Shown: positions 1-12,740 of the stretch, one piece after another | How the letters are laid out: the number at the start of each line of letters is the position of its first letter | Position numbering within the stretch: position 1 is the stretch's first letter | Assembly: GCF_001429065.1 (NCBI RefSeq) | Contig: NZ_LMIB01000001.1 | Span: 1,001,933-1,065,932 of the forward strand | Direction of reading: 5' to 3' | DNA length: 64,000 bases | From: Sphingomonas sp. Root710 | GTDB taxonomy: Bacteria > Pseudomonadota > Alphaproteobacteria > Sphingomonadales > Sphingomonadaceae | The notes under the pieces: model-generated | Databases searched by the model: none | Told to the model about the DNA's origin: nothing | What the model saw: the letters and a program-made list of their open reading frames with translations, nothing else | Made by a program: the position numbers and the translations under genes

Positions 1-1295
1 GCGCCGGCGCGATAGAAGGCGCGGATATCCGCGACCACCTGGGCGGGTTCGCCGTGGCGCAGCGTGCGGACCGTTCCGCCGACCTGATCGAAGGCGAGCG
101 AGTGACAGGCACCGCAGGCGGTTTCCATCTTCACCGCGGCGAAGCTGTTCCCCGTGGCGTCGCGGGTGTGGCAGTTTGCGCAGTCGAGCGGCGCTCCATA
201 GCCTTCGCCCTTACCCAGCGTCTTCGCCATCTGCGCGACGCCATTGGTCGCCGACAGGTGGATGTCGTGCGGGAATTTCAACCCGTTGTCTTCCTTAGGG
301 TTCGCATCGAGCGAGACCCGGCGGAACATCGGCGCGCCGTCCGCTCCGGCGAAACGGATCGTCGGTGCGAACTGCGGGTGCTTTTCGCCAAAGTCCGCGG
401 TGTCCTTGAGCGCGGTATCGATCCGCTTGCTCATGTCGTTATGGCAATTGGTGCAGAAGCGCTCGTCGGTGACGGGCATCGCGGTCGTGCCCTGATGCTC
501 GGTATGGCACTCGACGCAGCGGCCCGGCTGGATGCCGAAGAGCCCGCCGACAAACTGCTTGGTGCCGCCGACGATGCCCAGCGACCCTCGCGCCTCGGCG
601 AGCTTCTTGGGGTCGGCATGGTCGTGGACCTTGGTGTGGCACGCGGCGCAGGCGGTGTCGCGGACCGCCTCGCCAGCCTTCACATGGCAGGCCTGGCAAT
701 TATTCTCGAGGCTCTTGTGAACCTGCGACAGCTTTCCCGAGGTCCACATTTCATCCGCGTGGAAGGCGACCTTGCGGGTCGCGTCGGTCGGCTGGGTATG
801 GATCGAGACCAGCGGCCAGATCAGGAAAATGGCGAGGATGATCAGCGCGAGCGCCCATGCAAGCGGGCGTTTGCCGGGCAAGGTGCTTGCAAGCGAGAAG
901 ACGCGCGCCTCCTCCTTGTCCTCGGAGGCGTTGGAGATCGCACCGACGCGGGCGACGGTGATGACGACCTTGCCCTTTTCATCGCCCTCGCCGGGCTCGA
1001 AGGACAGGGCGTGGCTGCCGATGCGGACGTCGGCGCCCTGCGCCGCGCTGAAGCGTTCATGTTCGGATTGCTTGCCGTCGACCACGAAGGGCATGCCGGC
1101 GGTGGCGACCAGCTCGACATAGCCGCCCGGCGCGGTGCGGACGACGGCATGATTGAGCGCCGCCGCGAGGTCGGGAAGGTGAATGTCGCTCGACGGACTG
1201 CGGCCGATGCTAAGTTCGGCCTTGTCGAAGCTCTTGGGGCGGACGATGTCGCGCCCGTCGGCGGTGCGCGCTACCGTGCGAACGATGAAGCTCAT
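1..1295 (-). CDS. FHA-domain, membrane-anchored multiheme cytochrome c (C-terminus beyond left edge)
   Basis: I translated this frame directly: 431 codons are open to the left edge, so the C-terminus is missing. Residues 1-110 form a forkhead-associated (FHA) fold with the GRSPSSDIHL strand-loop. One transmembrane helix follows at about 144-165. Then come six CxxCH heme-c motifs, with first cysteines near 200, 216, 260, 281, 372 and 394. The expected topology is cytoplasmic FHA and periplasmic hemes. In canonical FHA domains an SRxHA motif contacts phosphothreonine; here it reads ALNHA, so phosphate binding may be weakened although Arg32 of GRS is kept. The gene starts 10 nt after the stop of the b-type membrane protein, so it is the third gene of that operon. 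Role inferred: terminal periplasmic electron carrier. I know no named homologue. Confidence 0.85.
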   Translation of the reverse strand, partial: MSFIVRTVARTADGRDIVRPKSFDKAELSIGRSPSSDIHLPDLAAALNHAVVRTAPGGYVELVATAGMPFVVDGKQSEHERFSAAQGADVRIGSHALSFEPGEGDEKGKVVITVARVGAISNASEDKEEARVFSLASTLPGKRPLAWALALIILAIFLIWPLVSIHTQPTDATRKVAFHADEMWTSGKLSQVHKSLENNCQACHVKAGEAVRDTACAACHTKVHDHADPKKLAEARGSLGIVGGTKQFVGGLFGIQPGRCVECHTEHQGTTAMPVTDERFCTNCHNDMSKRIDTALKDTADFGEKHPQFAPTIRFAGADGAPMFRRVSLDANPKEDNGLKFPHDIHLSATNGVAQMAKTLGKGEGYGAPLDCANCHTRDATGNSFAAVKMETACGACHSLAFDQVGGTVRTLRHGEPAQVVADIRAFYRAG

Positions 1296-1305
1296 GTGCG
1301 CGTTC

Positions 1306-2184
1306 TCACCAGTAATAGAAGACGGCGACGATGTGGACGAACAGCGCCGCGATCAGCGCGAAGGTCAGCGGCACATGGATGTACAGCCAAACCTCGAGCA
1401 GCGCTTTGAGGCGCAGATGCTTGCGTATCCGCGACAGCGACGAACGCTTGCGCTCCAGCAGCACTTCGACATGATCGAGCGGATCGGCCTGTGCTTCGCC
1501 GCGCGACGGATGCGCGCGGACCGCGGCGAGCGCCGCGCGCGTGCCGCATTTGCCATAGCGGCCGGTCAGCCGTGCGATGATGCCGCCGCCGAACGGATCG
1601 TCGTGCAACGCCATCTGGACGATCGCGGCGCCCTCGGCGTCGAGCGGCTGCGCCGCCTCGTTGAGCTGACGGTCGAGCATCCGCAGATTGTCGAGCATCT
1701 GCAGCTGGGTGGTCTCACCCCGGTTGGCCGACAGCGCCTGGGGCAGCGAGGCATAGGCCGCGATCCCGAAAATGCCCGATGCAATCACAAGCATCATAAG
1801 GACATAGGCCAGGGTGTGAACATTCCATCCGAGGTCGAAACCCGTATGGAGGGTGGCGATCACGATCAGCGACAGGCCCAGATAGACATGCGCCGACGTC
1901 CAGCTCTTGAGCGACCAGCGGCCCGGCGTGATCTGGCGCTTGCGCACGCCCAGCATCGTCAGCCACAGGATCAGGCCCACCCCGATGGTGCCCGTGACAT
2001 AGCCGTAGATGCTGCCGCCATTGGGCTTGGGCTGGACGTCGTTGAACGCGTAGATCAGCAGCGCAATGCCCGAGATGATCAGCGCGATCTTGAGCCATTT
2101 ATAGCCCTGATAGCGCAGGAAACCTTCATGCTCGGAGGCACGCTCGCGACCGGTGGTCGCCTGGCGTAGCGATTTACTGGCCAT
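1306..2184 (-). CDS. b-type cytochrome-like integral membrane protein
   Basis: The 292-residue protein has about five hydrophobic helices (roughly 31-48, 58-80, 98-115, 122-147 and 263-291) and a soluble cytoplasmic-type loop at 150-255. Histidines 99, 113, 123, 270 and 284 sit in or beside helices, as expected of heme-b ligands in cytochrome b561 or ferric-reductase-like proteins. The start codon overlaps the stop of the upstream FAD/Fe-S gene by one base (TGATG), which indicates translational coupling. Position between a cytosolic Fe-S oxidoreductase and a periplasmic multiheme cytochrome suggests it carries electrons across the membrane. The heme assignment is inference from His placement; family membership is uncertain. 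Confidence 0.8.
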   Translation of the reverse strand: MASKSLRQATTGRERASEHEGFLRYQGYKWLKIALIISGIALLIYAFNDVQPKPNGGSIYGYVTGTIGVGLILWLTMLGVRKRQITPGRWSLKSWTSAHVYLGLSLIVIATLHTGFDLGWNVHTLAYVLMMLVIASGIFGIAAYASLPQALSANRGETTQLQMLDNLRMLDRQLNEAAQPLDAEGAAIVQMALHDDPFGGGIIARLTGRYGKCGTRAALAAVRAHPSRGEAQADPLDHVEVLLERKRSSLSRIRKHLRLKALLEVWLYIHVPLTFALIAALFVHIVAVFYYW

Positions 2185-4634
2185 CAGGCGTCGTCCCGCT
2201 GCAACCGGGCGACCGTCAGGAACTCTTCAGGCGCGACACGGATCGCCGCCCCCGTCGGACAGGCGCGCACGCAGCTCGGGCCGCCCTCGATACCCGAGCA
2301 CATGTCGCATTTCACCGCGCGCTTCGCCTTCTCGACCCCGCCCGAATTGGCATAGGCCCATTCATGGCTCGGCTCGCCCGGTCCCGGCCCTTGTCCGAAC
2401 AGGAACCACTTCCACAAGCTCGGCTTCTTCGGCGGCTCCTTTTCCATCCGGATCACCCCATAGGGACAGTTCCGCTGGCAATTGCCGCAACCGATGCAGG
2501 TGTTGTCGATATAGACCTCGCCATCCTGACCGCGGTGGATCGCGGTCGGCGGGCAATCGGCCATGCAGTGCGGATGCTCGCAATGCCGGCAGCTGGTCGG
2601 GACATGGAGATGCGCGAAGGTGCGTCCCGCCTCGCGGTCGAGCCGCGAGATACCGTCATGGCTGTCGGCGCAGGCCTTCTCGCAATTGTCGCAGCCGACG
2701 CAGAGATTCTCGTCGATCAGCAGCACGTCGGTGGCCTCGCCGACGCCATTGTCGACCAGGAAGTTGGCGACCGACGAATACATGTCGACGACGCTGGCGA
2801 AACTGTCCTTCTTGGCCTCGATGAACGAGGCGAGATCCTCGCGCTCGCCGATAGCGACCTTCGCCTTGGCAAAGAATTGCGGCTTGGCCTCCAGCAACCG
2901 CCGGAACGCCTCGCCCTCAAGCTTGATCACCTCGGACTTGACCGCGGCGCGCACCGTCTGCTTGCGGATGCCGTTGTCGAACAGTTCGAGCTCGCCGACA
3001 TAATTGCCGGCGGGGATGTAGGAGAGGAACACCGGCTTGCCGCCGATCGACTTCTCGACGACCACCGATCCCGAGCGGATCACATAGACGTCCTTGCCTT
3101 CCTCGCCCTCGCGGAAGATCACCTCGCCCGCGCGGACGGCCTTGATCTCGGCGCTCTCGATCACCTCTGCCAGATCGGCGGGCTGGAGGCCCGACTGCCA
3201 CATCTGGAGCAGCTGACGCTCGGTCGAGATGCGAGTCACCGCGCGCTTCACGCCCGGCACAGACGCCATCAGCTTCAGGATCGCGTTGCGCGGGATCTCG
3301 ACCACGACGGTCTCGGCGATCGAGCGGATCGTTGAGCCGCGGCGGCGGCCCGAGACGAGGCCGACCTCACCGAAGATCGAGCCTTCGGGAATGACGATGC
3401 CCGTCGAGCGGCCATCGGGCAGCGGAATGTCCACCGAGCCCTGCGCGATGCAGAACAGCGACGATCCCGGCGCGTTCTTCTCGAAGATGATGTCGTTCTT
3501 GCCATAGAAGCGCACGTCCGAGTCGAGCATGAACTCGCGCATCTGCAGTGGCGACAGATCGTTGAGGATCGTGACGTTGGTGCGGATGAACTCGAGCCAT
3601 TCGTCGACCGATTTGCGGATGGGCAGGTTGACGAACTTGCCCTCGAGGATCGGTTCGTCGGCGGGTTTCAGGGCGAGATTGCCGTTGATGAACTCGACGA
3701 TGTCATAGCCCTGGTTCATGCAGTGCTTGATCAGCGGATAGCCCGCGAGCGCGCCGATGACATAAATGCCGGGGTTGGTCGTCTCGAACTGCGGCGACAG
3801 CTTGGGGAAAGCCTCACGGTCGGCGCTGGTGAACTCGATCCCGCATTCCTCGATGAACTTGCGCGGGGCGGCGGAGCCCATGCGGGCGATGATCCGGTCG
3901 CAGCGGATGCGCGCCTCGCCATCGCGGGTGTCGAGGACGAGGTGGCCCGCTTCGATCCGGTTCGGCGTCGCGTCGGTGATGACGTTCATCCGCCCTTCGT
4001 CGCGCGCCTGCATCAGCAGCTTCACGTTCGCGCCCTTGGCGCGGCTGAAGTCCGCGGTGCGGTTGATGATCGAGACGATGTTGCCCTGCGCCAGATCGGC
4101 GGCGAGGCCCAGCGCATTCTCGATACCCGCGTCGCCCGCCCCGATCACGGTGATATGTTCATCGACATATTCGCCGGGGTCGTCGAGCTGATATTGCAGC
4201 TGAAGGTGGTTCTGGTCGGCGCCGGGGCAGCGCAGCAGGTTCGGGTTGCCCTGGGTGCCGATCGCCAGGATGATGTTCTCGGCCTTGATCTCGGTCTTGT
4301 CTGTCAGGGTCAGGGTGAAGTCGCCCTTGGCGCCGGTGATCGTCTTCACCTCGCTCTTGAGCCGGACATTCACCTTGGCGGCGGCGGTCTGCTCGTCCCA
4401 GATGCCGAGAATCTTCTCGCGCTTGCCCGCGTCGAACTCGATGTCCGAGCGCAGCACCAGCTGACTCGGCGTCGCCATGACGTGCTTGCCCTTCTGATAT
4501 TTGAAGATCGTATCAGAAAGATGGTCGGTCTTTTCGAGCAGGATATGCGACAGGCCGAGCTTCGCCGCGTGCGCCGCCGCGCTAAGCCCCGCCGGCCCTG
4601 AGCCAACGATGGCAATACGGTAGGTATCCGCCAC
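2184..4634 (-). CDS. FAD/NAD(P) oxidoreductase fused to two cNMP-binding domains and a four-cluster 4Fe-4S module
   Basis: The GTG at 4634 is preferred because GGGGGA precedes it by a short spacer and the Rossmann motif IAIVGSGPAG begins eight residues later; a frame upstream to 4700 lacks such a site. The 816-residue product has a thioredoxin-reductase-like FAD/NAD(P) region at about 1-330 (GSGPAG, GAGDAG, IGALAG) without a CxxC active disulfide. Two cyclic-nucleotide-binding folds follow at about 365-475 and 500-610; both keep the Gly-Glu and Arg of the phosphate cassette (FGEVGL..RRRGST and VGELEL..RKQT). The C-terminal 160 residues are DmsB/NrfC-like, with four cysteine clusters (CVGCDNC, CRHCEHPHC, CIGCGNC, CDMC..CVRAC). 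Inferred role: cytosolic NAD(P)H entry point of the relay, gated by cAMP or cGMP. Confidence 0.9.
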   Translation of the reverse strand: MADTYRIAIVGSGPAGLSAAAHAAKLGLSHILLEKTDHLSDTIFKYQKGKHVMATPSQLVLRSDIEFDAGKREKILGIWDEQTAAAKVNVRLKSEVKTITGAKGDFTLTLTDKTEIKAENIILAIGTQGNPNLLRCPGADQNHLQLQYQLDDPGEYVDEHITVIGAGDAGIENALGLAADLAQGNIVSIINRTADFSRAKGANVKLLMQARDEGRMNVITDATPNRIEAGHLVLDTRDGEARIRCDRIIARMGSAAPRKFIEECGIEFTSADREAFPKLSPQFETTNPGIYVIGALAGYPLIKHCMNQGYDIVEFINGNLALKPADEPILEGKFVNLPIRKSVDEWLEFIRTNVTILNDLSPLQMREFMLDSDVRFYGKNDIIFEKNAPGSSLFCIAQGSVDIPLPDGRSTGIVIPEGSIFGEVGLVSGRRRGSTIRSIAETVVVEIPRNAILKLMASVPGVKRAVTRISTERQLLQMWQSGLQPADLAEVIESAEIKAVRAGEVIFREGEEGKDVYVIRSGSVVVEKSIGGKPVFLSYIPAGNYVGELELFDNGIRKQTVRAAVKSEVIKLEGEAFRRLLEAKPQFFAKAKVAIGEREDLASFIEAKKDSFASVVDMYSSVANFLVDNGVGEATDVLLIDENLCVGCDNCEKACADSHDGISRLDREAGRTFAHLHVPTSCRHCEHPHCMADCPPTAIHRGQDGEVYIDNTCIGCGNCQRNCPYGVIRMEKEPPKKPSLWKWFLFGQGPGPGEPSHEWAYANSGGVEKAKRAVKCDMCSGIEGGPSCVRACPTGAAIRVAPEEFLTVARLQRDDA

Positions 4635-4827: not shown

Positions 4828-5790
4828 GTGACGAAGGACAGTGCCGCAAATAAGGGGTTTTCGCTGCCGTTCGCGCGTGTCGCGCTGATCCTCGCGGCCC
4901 TGATCGCGCTCGCCGCCGTGGCAATCGCGACGATGCGATCGGGCAGCAGCAGCAGCGAATCTCCTTCGCCGGAGGCGATGCCCGCGGCCGGCGACCTTTC
5001 CGCTGCGATCTCCGGCCTTGAGAAGAAGCTGGCCGCGAATCCCGACAACGCCGAAAACTGGAACCTGCTCGGCCTCGGCTATTATAATGTCGGCCGCTAC
5101 GCCGACGCCGTGAAAGCCTATGCCAGGGCCACCAGCATCGATCCGAACAATGCGGTATACTGGTCGGCGCTCGGCGAGGTGCAGGTGCTCACCGGTCCGG
5201 GCGGAGTGATCCCGCAAGCGGAAGCCTCGTTCAAAAAGGCGCTGGCGATCGACCCCAAGGATTTCCGGGCCCGCTATTTCCTGGCGGTCAAGCGGAACGA
5301 GGGCGGTGACAGCAAGGGCGCGGTGGACCAGCTGATCAGCCTGCTCAACGACAGCCCGGCGGGGGCGTCGTGGGAACAACCGGTCCGCGACCTGATCGCG
5401 AAGATATCCACTGACAACAAGATCGACATCACGGGCCGCCTTCGTCCGCCTTCGGTCGCGCAGAGCCCCACGCCCGCGCCGGTTGACAACGTCGCGACGG
5501 GCGGCATTCCCGGGCCGACTGCCGCCGACCTTAAGGCCGCGACCGGCATGACGCCGTCGGAGCAGGACGATATGGCACGCGGCATGGTTGCGCGCCTCGC
5601 CGCCCGCCTGGAGGCCAATCCGCGCGACGCCGATCGCTGGATCATGCTGATTCGCTCGCGGATGCAGCTCAACGATCCGGCCGGCGCGCGCAGCGCGGTG
5701 AACGGCGCGAAAGCGGCGTTCAAGGACGATCCCCGGCAACAGGCCCGCTTCGATCAGGCCGCGCAGATGCTGGGCGTGCCGGGGAAGTAG
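4828..5790 (+). CDS. TPR protein, CcmI/CycH-like, membrane anchored
   Basis: A GTG start at 4828 follows a GGAGAG ribosome-binding site; ATG in the other frame nearby is closed at once. The 320-residue protein has one N-terminal transmembrane helix (about 17-36), a Ser-rich linker, three TPR-like repeats at about 60-165 and a second helical repeat region at 235-310. This layout resembles the C-terminal TPR part of cytochrome c maturation factor CcmI/CycH. It is divergent from the multiheme cytochrome operon, which would fit a role in presenting apocytochrome, but TPR proteins are generic and the link is inference. It ends convergently to clpX with a shared terminator. Confidence 0.8.
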   Translation: MTKDSAANKGFSLPFARVALILAALIALAAVAIATMRSGSSSSESPSPEAMPAAGDLSAAISGLEKKLAANPDNAENWNLLGLGYYNVGRYADAVKAYARATSIDPNNAVYWSALGEVQVLTGPGGVIPQAEASFKKALAIDPKDFRARYFLAVKRNEGGDSKGAVDQLISLLNDSPAGASWEQPVRDLIAKISTDNKIDITGRLRPPSVAQSPTPAPVDNVATGGIPGPTAADLKAATGMTPSEQDDMARGMVARLAARLEANPRDADRWIMLIRSRMQLNDPAGARSAVNGAKAAFKDDPRQQARFDQAAQMLGVPGK

Positions 5791-5890: not shown

Positions 5891-7162
<1,272 letters not shown>

Positions 7163-8953: not shown

Positions 8954-9610
8954 TTAGGCCGCGATTGCCTCGTCGGCCGGGGTCGGACGCTTGTCGAACA
9001 CCTCGTCGATCAGGCCGAAGGCCTTGGCTTCGTCCGCCTCGAGAAACTTGTCGCGGTCCATCGCGGTCTCGATCGCCTCGATCGGCTGCTTGGTATATTT
9101 GGCGTAGAGCGAGTTGAGCCGGTGGCGCATGCGCAGGATTTCGCGCGCCTGGATCTCGATATCGGCCGCCATGCCCTGCGCCCCGCCCGAAGGCTGGTGG
9201 ATCATGATCCGGCTGTTTGTGAGCGCGACGCGCATGCCGGGCTCGCCCGCGGCAAGCAGGAAGCTGCCCATAGACGCCGCCTGACCGATGCACACCGTGC
9301 CGACGCGCGGACGGATATATTGCATCGTGTCGTGGATCGCGAGACCCGCCGTCACCACGCCGCCCGGCGAGTTGATGTACATGAAGATGTCCTTCTTCGG
9401 ATTTTCCGATTCCAGGAACAGCAGCTGGGCGGTGATCAGCGAGGCCATGTGATCCTCGACCTGGCCGGTCACGAAGATGATTCGTTCGCGCAGCAGGCGC
9501 GAATAGATGTCGAAGCTGCGCTCGCCGCGGTTCGACTGCTCGATGACGACCGGGACCAGCGCGGCCGTTTCCGGATTGAGGAACTGGCCGGTTTCGAACG
9601 GATTCTGCAT
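8954..9610 (-). CDS. clpP: ATP-dependent Clp protease proteolytic subunit ClpP
   Basis: The 218-residue serine peptidase has the catalytic triad Ser113 (GQAASMGSF), His138 (IMIHQPSGG) and Asp187 (MDRDKF), at the spacing of E. coli ClpP. It forms the tetradecameric cytoplasmic chamber that works with ClpX. A heat-shock-type promoter candidate lies about 40 bp upstream of the start. The gene is divergent from a membrane-protein gene at 9747. Confidence 0.98.
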
Positions 9611-11144: not shown

Positions 11145-12740
11145 TTATTCGGCGGTCTTCTTCTTCGCCGGAGCCTTCTTGGCAGGAGCCGGAGCGGCCT
11201 CATCTGCGGCAGCTGCGGCAGCCTTCTTCGGAGCAGCCTTTTTCGGCGCGGGCTTAGCGGCGGCCGGCTCTTCAGCGGCGGGAGCCTCCTCGGCGGGCTT
11301 GGCAGCGGCCTTCTTCGCCGCCGGCTTCTTGGCCGGCTTGGCGTCATGATCATGGTCGTGATCATCATGGCCGCAATCCGGGCCATGGACATGGCCCTTG
11401 CCGATCGTGTCGTCGTCCGCCTCGATCGCGGCTTCGAGCTCTTCACGCGTTACCGTGCGGTCGGTGATCTCGGCCTTCTCGAACAGGAAGTCGACGACCT
11501 TGTCCTCATACAGCGGCGCGCGGAGCTGGGCTGCAGCCATCGGGTCCTGCTGGACATATTGGATGAACCGGTCGCGGTCCTTGGGACCGTACTGCTGCGC
11601 GGCCTGGAGGATCAGCCGCTGCATTTCCTGCTGATTGACCTCGACGCCATTTTGCTGACCGATCTCGGACAGGAGCAGACCCAGGCGGACGCGGCGCTCT
11701 GCGATCGCCTGATAGTCGGCACGGTCCTTCTCCATCTCGGCGCGGGCGGCCTCGGGGTCCTCCTCATGGCTCGCCTCATGCTCGAGCTGCGCCCAGATCT
11801 GCTGGAACTCGGCATCGACCATCGACGGCGGCACCGGGAAGCTGTGGTTCGCGGCCAGCTGGTCGAGCAGCTTGCGCTTCATATGGGTGCGGGTCAGGCC
11901 GTTGAGCTCCTGCTCGATCTGCCCCTTGAGCAGTTCGCGCAGCTGGTCGAGGCCCTGGAGGCCCAGCGACTTGGCGAAATCCTCATCGACCTTGGCTTCG
12001 CGCGGCACGCGAACGTCGGTGACCGTCACCTCGAACACCGCCTTCTTGCCGGCAAGCGACTTCTCGCCATAATCCTTGGGGAAGGTGACGTTGAGCGTGC
12101 GCGCCTCGCCCTTCTTGACGCCCTCGAGCTGCTCCTCGAAGCCGGGGATCAGGCGGCCCGAGCCGAGCTCGACCGACATGCCCTCGCCGGTGCCGCCATC
12201 GAAAGCAACGCCGTCGACGCTGCCGGCATAGTCCATGACGACCAGATCGCCTTCGACCGCAGGATGGCCTTCCATCGCATCGTCATACTGCTTCTGCTGG
12301 CCGGCGATGCGCTTCAGCTGCTCGTCGATCACCTCTTCGGCGGCGGCGACGGTCAGGCGCTCCAGCTTCAGGCCGTCGATCGATGGAGCGGGCACGTCGG
12401 GGAGCACTTCGAGCTCGACCTTCAACGCGACATCCTTGCCCGGCTCATAGCCTTCGTCCAGCTCGACCGAAGGCTGCATCGCCGGGCGCAGCTTCTGCTC
12501 GGCGAGGAGCTGCTGGATGCCGTCCTGCACGGTCTTGTTCAGCACGTCCTGCTCGATCGACGGGCCATGCATCTTCTTGACGAGATTGACGGGCACCTTG
12601 CCGGGGCGGAAGCCGGGCATGCGGATCTGCGGAGCGATCGACTTGATCTCGGCCTCGACGCGCTTGGCGACATCATTCGCCGGAATCGTCACCGCATAGG
12701 CGCGCTTCAGGCCCTCATTGAGCGTTTCGACAGTCTGCAT
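11145..12740 (-). CDS. tig: Trigger factor with long His-rich and Ala/Lys/Pro-rich tail
   Basis: The N-terminal ribosome-binding domain carries the signature FRPGKVP (GFRPGKVP near residue 44). A PPIase domain follows at about 150-240 and the helical chaperone domain to about 430. Trigger factor is usually about 430-450 residues; this one has 531. The extra tail holds a histidine cluster (HGPDCGHDDHDHDHD) and then roughly 70 residues of Ala/Lys/Pro/Glu repeats. The His cluster could bind metal; the tail is low-complexity and likely disordered. tRNA-Leu ends 66 nt upstream on the same strand. It works co-translationally at the ribosome exit, and clpXP is nearby. Confidence 0.96.
   Translation of the reverse strand: MQTVETLNEGLKRAYAVTIPANDVAKRVEAEIKSIAPQIRMPGFRPGKVPVNLVKKMHGPSIEQDVLNKTVQDGIQQLLAEQKLRPAMQPSVELDEGYEPGKDVALKVELEVLPDVPAPSIDGLKLERLTVAAAEEVIDEQLKRIAGQQKQYDDAMEGHPAVEGDLVVMDYAGSVDGVAFDGGTGEGMSVELGSGRLIPGFEEQLEGVKKGEARTLNVTFPKDYGEKSLAGKKAVFEVTVTDVRVPREAKVDEDFAKSLGLQGLDQLRELLKGQIEQELNGLTRTHMKRKLLDQLAANHSFPVPPSMVDAEFQQIWAQLEHEASHEEDPEAARAEMEKDRADYQAIAERRVRLGLLLSEIGQQNGVEVNQQEMQRLILQAAQQYGPKDRDRFIQYVQQDPMAAAQLRAPLYEDKVVDFLFEKAEITDRTVTREELEAAIEADDDTIGKGHVHGPDCGHDDHDHDHDAKPAKKPAAKKAAAKPAEEAPAAEEPAAAKPAPKKAAPKKAAAAAADEAAPAPAKKAPAKKKTAE

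Follow-up and report, generated by a model that had tools for sequence, protein, structure and literature searches.

The 64,000-nucleotide stretch of Sphingomonas sp. Root710 DNA analysed here (contig NZ_LMIB01000001.1, positions 1,001,933 to 1,065,932; hereafter the window) begins with three genes, P0001, P0002 and P0003. These raise the question of where a flavoprotein that shares a single polypeptide with cyclic nucleotide (cNMP)-binding domains and iron-sulphur (Fe-S) clusters, and that is encoded beside a membrane cytochrome b and a multihaem cytochrome c, may deliver its electrons. An earlier note had proposed an operon whose products pass electrons from reduced pyridine nucleotide, NAD(P)H, to a periplasmic acceptor, under the control of cyclic AMP (cAMP) or cyclic GMP (cGMP) and perhaps of phosphopeptides. 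We propose, at a probability of roughly 0.55, that the operon encodes the inner-membrane half of a cNMP-controlled trans-envelope conduit leading from NAD(P)H to the cell surface. The three-gene block itself is confirmed, with the open reading frames, coordinates and domain content originally described: all three genes lie on the minus strand, from window position 4634 to 3, P0002 overlapping the stop codon of P0001 by one base and P0003 starting 10 bases beyond the end of P0002. Their parts are as follows (FAD, flavin adenine dinucleotide).

2184..4634, minus strand: P0001, 816 amino acids; GTG start at 4634, stop at 2184-2186
3708..4622, minus strand: FAD/NAD(P) domain of P0001 (residues 5-309), YpdA-like; Pfam Pyr_redox_2, both GxGxx[GA] motifs
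3270..3527, minus strand: first cNMP-binding domain of P0001 (Pfam), limits approximate; cassette at residues 421-435
2886..3143, minus strand: second cNMP-binding domain of P0001 (Pfam), residues 498-583; cassette at residues 546-560
2259..2702, minus strand: four-cluster ferredoxin part of P0001 with 16 Cys, residues 645-792; Fer4 families including PF13247
1306..2184, minus strand: P0002, 292 amino acids, predicted diheme cytochrome b-type membrane protein, from its motifs and hydrophobic stretches
3..1295, minus strand: P0003, first 431 of 607 amino acids; FHA fold, one transmembrane helix and decahaem cytochrome c part; the gene runs beyond the window edge
978..1229, minus strand: FHA domain of P0003 (residues 23-106); phosphothreonine-contact Ser replaced by Ala46
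102..698, minus strand: six of the ten CxxCH haem c sites of P0003, those within the window

The composition of P0001 is evident from matches to Pyr_redox_3 (2.4e-31), to cNMP_binding in two stretches (3.8e-35) and to several Fer4 models, and its homologues share its start position. In an alignment of 74 rows, from which one duplicate of the window protein was omitted, all 16 Fe-S cysteines and the NAD(P) GxGxx[GA] motif are invariant, while the FAD motif is present in 72 rows, the other two being gapped there. Arg192 and Lys200, each kept in 73 rows, form a pattern that we take to resemble an NADPH-type site; the flavin part (residues 1-330) contains no CxxC. The first cNMP cassette has its Gly, Glu and Arg in every row, and the second has Gly in 74, Glu in 73 and Arg in 74. 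The Glu and Arg are presumably those that bind phosphate, and both domains appear to retain intact phosphate-binding cassettes. These alignment columns provide a better count than a pattern search for both cassettes, which over 75 rows detected the pair in 50, a single one in 24 and none in 1.

P0002 contains five hydrophobic stretches, with pairs of His residues in or beside the third and fifth. Its motifs are W95-X3-H99-X13-H113, S136-G137-X2-G140 and W266-X3-H270-X13-H284, and the four His residues (99, 113, 270 and 284) are invariant in all 12 aligned relatives, some of which are merely 20-22% identical. Among 63 rows, which count the window protein twice, 60 have the paired WX3HX13H motifs together with [ST]GXXG and the remaining three have one motif. 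P0002 is accordingly predicted to be a diheme cytochrome b-type protein in which two His pairs, each spaced by 14 residues in one of two helices, would bind haem. A single-sequence search of P0002 against solved structures gave no match. Relationship to sensory rhodopsins was considered and set aside, the profile matches being at chance level (best E 0.096). In two genomes of one genus, the P0002 homologues (G399:C37:3567-4400 and G518:C3:69008-69841) are each reported with a single in-frame TAG.

Read from the genome, the whole of P0003 comprises 607 amino acids with ten CxxCH motifs and one hydrophobic stretch at 145-163 (L004, 9405-11228). Ten CxxCH are present in 59 of 66 rows of its family; six of the others are cut and the last, L166, has 9, as do the P0003 homologues of L054 and L056. 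The Pfam FHA match of P0003 alone is weak (E 0.024), whereas the family profile finds the FHA proteins GarA (2.1e-8) and oxoglutarate dehydrogenase inhibitor (4.8e-7), so that the fold is firmly predicted for the family. At the positions that we take from the FHA literature to contact phosphate, Arg is present in all 24 rows and Ser in just three, P0003 having Ala. Because the contact Ser is missing in 21 of the 24, this domain would not be expected to read phosphopeptides, and we have dropped that part of the control scheme originally suggested.

The association of the three genes was assessed in 80 loci, the best of at least 234 P0001 relatives in named genomes, chosen on P0001 alone; they stem from Alpha-, Beta- and Gammaproteobacteria plus a few odd labels. 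By tblastn, P0003 homologues are present in 74 loci and P0002 homologues in 71. Eight of the nine loci that lack P0002 are cut by the stretch edge inside the block, and only L121 has neither P0002 nor P0003 beside P0001. Such linkage is far beyond chance. In L054 (3052-6423) and L056 (5850-9206), moreover, P0001 and P0002 form one open reading frame. Further fusions of this kind are suggested by open frames of 868-1154 amino acids around the P0002 match in three genomes of the class (G452, G421 and G429).

The same loci reveal additional partners: a decahaem protein (DECA) in 46, a putative outer-membrane barrel (BARREL) in 44, a lipoprotein-like protein (LIPO) in 33, a phosphodiesterase in 31, a CcmH-type protein in 29, a tetrahaem protein (TETRA) in 14, a cyclase in 12 and gdhA, for an NADP-glutamate dehydrogenase, in 9. 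Clustering of open reading frames shows these eight and the three operon proteins to be the only families present in at least 8 loci. Family rows were drawn from loci with a called and clustered frame, 71 of the 80 for P0001, 60 for P0002, 63 for P0003 and 40 for DECA. In 18 loci the order is P0001-P0002-P0003-LIPO-BARREL-DECA in a single direction, and five more (L119, L120, L127, L128 and L135) have the first five of these genes followed by a contig end. A second order, P0003-LIPO-BARREL-DECA-TETRA-P0001, is found in L124, L130, L134, L143, L149 and L154, with pieces or variants of it in L137, L144 and L145. In Sphingomonadales the arrangement is P0001-P0002-P0003-phosphodiesterase, the outer set being mostly on the opposite strand or elsewhere. 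For the 34 loci without DECA in the stretch, 24 of 25 genomes sought were searched, and 14 of them have DECA elsewhere. Three metagenome-assembled records that contain genes of the set bear labels that are probably mistaken: Bordetella parapertussis (L134), Klebsiella pneumoniae (L138) and Thermoflexus hugenholtzii (L145).

In the genome of the window the outer-membrane set lies some 265 kb from the operon: DECA occupies G000:C1:725654-729751, and BARREL, LIPO and TETRA come after it on that strand, extending to about 735082; a CHASE2/guanylate-cyclase gene lies beyond it at 740901-742943. The gene inventory of the earlier note, correct for the operon, included neither this remote set nor the phosphodiesterase gene P0004, which is positioned 127 bases downstream of P0003, beyond the window. 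DECA combines ten haem sites with a C-terminal LVIVD-repeat part, ten CxxCH being found in 36 of 41 rows and the other five rows lying at stretch ends; its profile found no solved relative at E up to 0.1. TETRA is a c554-like protein with four CxxCH in all 15 rows. BARREL ends in an aromatic residue, as is usual for outer-membrane barrels, and LIPO has HbpS-like domains and a lipobox-like Cys followed by Gly or Ser, such a Cys being usual for lipoproteins. In several Sphingomonadaceae (L097, 4199-9055; L071; L072) genes read, without family search, as aldehyde dehydrogenase-, thiamine-enzyme- and cysS-like lie beside the TETRA gene.

Although distant on the chromosome, the two sets co-occur. 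Among 59 genomes of the family, P0002 is found in 20, DECA in those 20 plus G319 (67% complete), and neither in 38 (Fisher 7.5e-15). On a DNA tree of 56 genomes based on ClpX (the clpX-like gene at window 5891-7162), P0002 changes 17 times and DECA 17 times, and the two agree in all 8 pairs that are phylogenetically independent and lie on supported branches (sign test 0.0078). The tree, quickly built, has strong support for 10 of its 53 inner branches, and three genomes that gave no ClpX match are absent from it, namely carrier G310, the discordant G319 and G322; since G319 is the sole discordant genome, coincidence on the tree is complete. NirB, employed as a control, shows no association, with 8 of 20 carriers having it and 16 of 39 others, and on these figures we abandoned the possibility that assimilatory nitrite reductase is replaced by the system. 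In a wider draw of 299 phylum genomes, a strong DECA is present in five, and these are exactly the five strong P0002 carriers belonging to the window's class; four more distant carriers (G154, G153, G034 and G001) gave no DECA match, the contig of G154 ending after BARREL. Among 240 genomes of the class, P0002 is present in 21 at E below 1e-50 and in 28 at 1e-5. On plasmids, P0001 and DECA both occur on large replicons in 12 Sphingobium plasmid-collection records (L109/L110), and Sphingopyxis indica pMC4 has the outer-membrane set with gdhA beside it and no P0001 among the matches listed (E limit 1e-40).

Further partners accompany the system. The CHASE2 cyclase is present, at E up to 1e-60, in 18 of 20 carriers and 2 of 39 non-carriers (one of the two being G319), and at 47% identity or more in 15 and 1, respectively; 6.7 of the 8 independent pairs agree. 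P0004 belongs to the calcineurin-type phosphoesterases, within the superfamily Metallophos, and its best NCBIfam matches, SpdA and a 3',5'-cAMP phosphodiesterase, are both below cut-off. With a cyclase and a phosphodiesterase as partners, a signal loop is plausible; together with the intact cassettes this renders the cAMP/cGMP control put forward earlier more likely, the gating as such being our interpretation. The other partner is an NADP-glutamate dehydrogenase, which at 77% identity or more is found in all 20 carriers and in 1 of 39 others, with three further others at 58-64%; on average 7.8 of 8 pairs agree, or 7.0 with the weaker three counted. In nine loci its gene falls inside the stretch, and in L118 it is some 130 bases upstream of P0001; the nine were assigned to Lysobacterales-type gammaproteobacteria, Sphingomonadales and Caulobacterales. 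The enzyme suggests either a supply of NADPH from glutamate or a use for ammonium formed outside.

Taken together, these components suggest a path. NAD(P)H, probably NADPH, would reduce the FAD of P0001. Electrons would then run along the four [4Fe-4S] clusters of this protein, enter the pair of b haems in P0002, and cross the inner membrane to P0003 and its ten c haems. From there they would reach the outer-membrane assembly, probably via TETRA, and an extracellular acceptor would be reduced at a predicted complex of BARREL, the HbpS-like lipoprotein and the decahaem/LVIVD protein. The two cNMP domains lie between the flavin and Fe-S parts and, on binding cAMP or cGMP, may open or close the flow; the CHASE2 cyclase would make the signal and the neighbouring phosphodiesterase remove it.

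Several observations count against this proposal. The assignment of BARREL as a beta-barrel-like protein depends on an outer-membrane-protein-like C-terminus, on the company it keeps and on weak family matches (Alginate_exp in 2 of 26, best 1.9e-5; for the single protein compared with NCBIfam, an outer-membrane porin model at 0.0022); its profile gave six chance-level matches against solved structures, all at E 0.36 or more, and no solved relative. DECA was not found in 10 of the 24 genomes searched (Gallionella, Methylotenera, Sulfuritalea and others), all ten being metagenome-assembled and perhaps partly incomplete. Because at least six of the ten are betaproteobacterial or similar loci with P0001-P0002(-P0003) alone, the relay probably does not require the outer part. 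Neither G127 nor G327 has the cyclase, and identity of its match is no more than 30-39% in G300, G310 and G344. P0004 scores 147.8 bits against the SpdA cut-off of 400 and 73.3 against the cut-off of 225 for the 3',5'-cAMP enzyme; given these scores, and since SpdA is named for 2',3'-cyclic nucleotides, P0004 need not act on the signal sensed by P0001. Finally, the link to glutamate dehydrogenase, although real across the class, is looser than in the family: at E up to 1e-80, with identities from 55%, the enzyme occurs in 10 of 21 strong P0002 carriers and 21 of 219 others among the 240 genomes (P 4e-5).

The direction of flow might be the reverse, with an extracellular donor such as Fe(II) or Mn(II) feeding electrons to quinone or NAD(P)+. 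In Gallionella, recognised as Fe(II) oxidisers, P0001-P0002 occur in one locus (L147, where the contig ends) and all three genes in another (L166). P0002, furthermore, shares its motif with the inner-membrane proteins of the putative conduits PCC3 and PCC4, which the main text of He et al. models as running from donor to quinone (PMC5566968). However, the LVIVD decahaem was not found in two Gallionella genomes searched, and the fusion of a flavin/NAD(P) domain to a full Fe-S wire points to pyridine nucleotide rather than quinone. We favour outward flow, since a pyridine-nucleotide flavoprotein forms the donor side and many carriers belong to groups that we take to be aerobic heterotrophs; inward flow seems to us unlikely.

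A different interpretation of DECA is that it reduces one compound at the surface or in the periplasm, perhaps a nitrogen or chalcogen oxyanion, the ammonium formed being used by glutamate dehydrogenase in an assimilation route. Contrary to what might be expected of a passive wire, all 17 other DECA rows, spread over proteobacterial classes, share 61-77% identity with the first, and many residues outside the haem sites are invariant; both the c554-type domains and the co-occurrence and linkage of glutamate dehydrogenase would suit such a function. The best NCBIfam match of DECA is also to Geobacter ExtM, of a selenite/tellurite cluster, yet at 66.8 bits where the cut-off is 800. Since, in addition, five DECA rows checked out of 18 contain no CxxCK haem, carriers keep NirB as often as other genomes do and the dehydrogenase may instead supply NADPH, we regard a dedicated reductase of this kind as improbable. 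Twelve-haem ExtM-like cytochromes (232-238 bits, below cut-off) were seen in L105 and L106, two class genomes without a listed P0002 match.

The relay as originally conceived, ending at a periplasmic acceptor under joint cNMP and phosphopeptide (FHA) control, receives some encouragement from the DECA-less genomes and from the presence of an FHA fold. Its transmembrane part, from flavin through Fe-S clusters and diheme b to multihaem c, is retained in our proposal. Its endpoint fares less well: because the relay is genetically tied to LIPO, BARREL and DECA, by linkage and by co-occurrence, the acceptor is probably not just periplasmic, albeit some genomes lack these partners, and the loss of the FHA contact Ser tells against the phosphopeptide element. 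As a whole that version now appears very unlikely.

Returning to the trans-envelope conduit, a more specific and more tentative form of it, which we think possible but rather doubtful, would be a previously undescribed, allosterically gated exporter. It would be fed with NADPH, partly from a dedicated NADP-glutamate dehydrogenase, switched directly and non-transcriptionally by a second messenger, and provided with about 24 c haems through both membranes, and it would reduce something extracellular in aerobic heterotrophs (Sphingomonas, Novosphingobium, Erythrobacter, Lysobacterales). Trans-envelope conduits have been studied mainly in metal reducers and iron oxidisers, whereas the present candidate sits in common aerobic soil and water bacteria not known for such export. 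It seems, moreover, to be linked to NAD(P)H and not to quinone, and to have a second-messenger sensor within the electron path; direct switching of electron export by cAMP or cGMP becomes testable with purified P0001.

The neighbourhood of the operon contains one further gene of cytochrome c biogenesis, divergent from and upstream of P0001.

4828..5790, plus strand: CcmH/CycH-type TPR protein of cytochrome c maturation; PF23914, 4.7e-23

Beyond it are housekeeping genes that read as clpX-, clpP- and tig-like (window 5891-7162, 8954-9610 and 11145-12740, respectively; no family search). On plasmid pMSHV of Sphingobium herbicidovorans the genes of the system are annotated with generic family names or as 'hypothetical protein'.

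Among characterised proteins and pathways, likenesses to the system are partial. The flavin domain of P0001 aligns with YpdA/Bdr (TIGR04018) over residues 7-297, but at 125.5 bits against a cut-off of 339.9, and it is fused to cNMP and Fe-S domains. In MtrCAB, MtoAB and PioAB, too, a cytochrome of the inner membrane passes electrons to a multihaem protein and a barrel; however, MtrB_PioB was not among the families matched by the 26 BARREL proteins at E up to 1. The entry point of MtrCAB is CymA (PMC5566968, main text), where here there would be a flavin-Fe-S-cytochrome b relay. The Geobacter extHIJKLMNOPQS cluster for selenite and tellurite similarly groups a porin-like protein, several multihaem c cytochromes, a cytochrome b and an Fe-S protein. 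Its ExtM, a family to which DECA does not belong by the score given above, has 12 haems and, in the available text, no LVIVD part, and its inner-membrane part is Rieske/bc1-like with no flavin-cNMP protein named there (PMC5877670).

Closer parallels are found among the putative conduits of He et al. (2017), whose main text identifies two WX3HX13H motifs plus SGXXG in the inner-membrane proteins of PCC3 and PCC4, reads these as diheme cytochromes b, and suggests Fe(II) or Mn(II) as donor (PMC5566968). PCC3 resembles the present system in this motif, but its cytochromes usually have many more haems (medians 34 and 21) and low-complexity repeats (PMC5566968), and the accounts of PCC3 and Uet, as far as available, name no flavin/cNMP protein (PMC5566968, PMC10734462). 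At L057 (7194-9891) a P0002-like protein is followed by a 24-haem cytochrome, near genes that read as CcmF-, CcmG- and CcmH-like, and this looks like the inner part of a PCC3.

PCC4 is the closest known kind, since P0002 carries the PCC3/PCC4 inner-membrane motifs (five transmembrane stretches, SGXXG and two WX3HX13H; PMC5566968). In its Subgroup II an Fe-S (PF13247) gene lies upstream, just as P0001, which matches PF13247 at 4.4e-11, precedes P0002; in one species the Fe-S and inner-membrane genes are annotated as one, comparable to the fusions in L054 and L056; and decahaem and tetrahaem c cytochromes occur in both, beside a porin in PCC4 and the putative barrel here (PMC5566968, main text). 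Some metagenome clusters have also been likened to PCC4 (PMC13264449, in the text available). There are also differences. The PCC4 cytochromes have 4, 5 and 10 haems where those here have 4, 10 and 10 CxxCH, no 5-haem family occurring among neighbours present in at least 8 of the 80 loci, and the main-text description of PCC4, supplements aside, includes no cNMP, FAD, FHA, LVIVD or HbpS part (PMC5566968). In PCC4-looking loci, profiles find P0002 homologues in L058, L060, L061 and L062, P0001 and P0003 homologues in L058, L060 and L062, and TETRA in L058, L060 and L061. No flavin family was matched by the P0001 homologue of L060, and the homologues in L058 and L062 are equally short (572-600 amino acids). 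The BARREL, LIPO and DECA profiles gave no match in these four loci, whose own porins were not identified and some of whose stretches are cut.

The suggestion that no named pathway has this domain set stands in part. The open-access texts consulted, supplements and subscription papers aside, contained no account of this gene set, nor of LVIVD multihaem or cNMP-multihaem extracellular electron transfer; a related putative conduit, PCC4, had nevertheless been proposed in 2017 (PMC5566968). On present sequence comparisons the system appears closest to PCC4, itself hypothetical, but is not counted as a member, because the haem numbers differ and because the PCC4-like loci gave no profile match to BARREL, LIPO or DECA. 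Its FAD/NAD(P), FHA, HbpS-lipoprotein and LVIVD-decahaem parts set it apart, and the system provides a concrete list of partners for one relative of the PCC3/PCC4 inner-membrane proteins, which are themselves uncharacterised.

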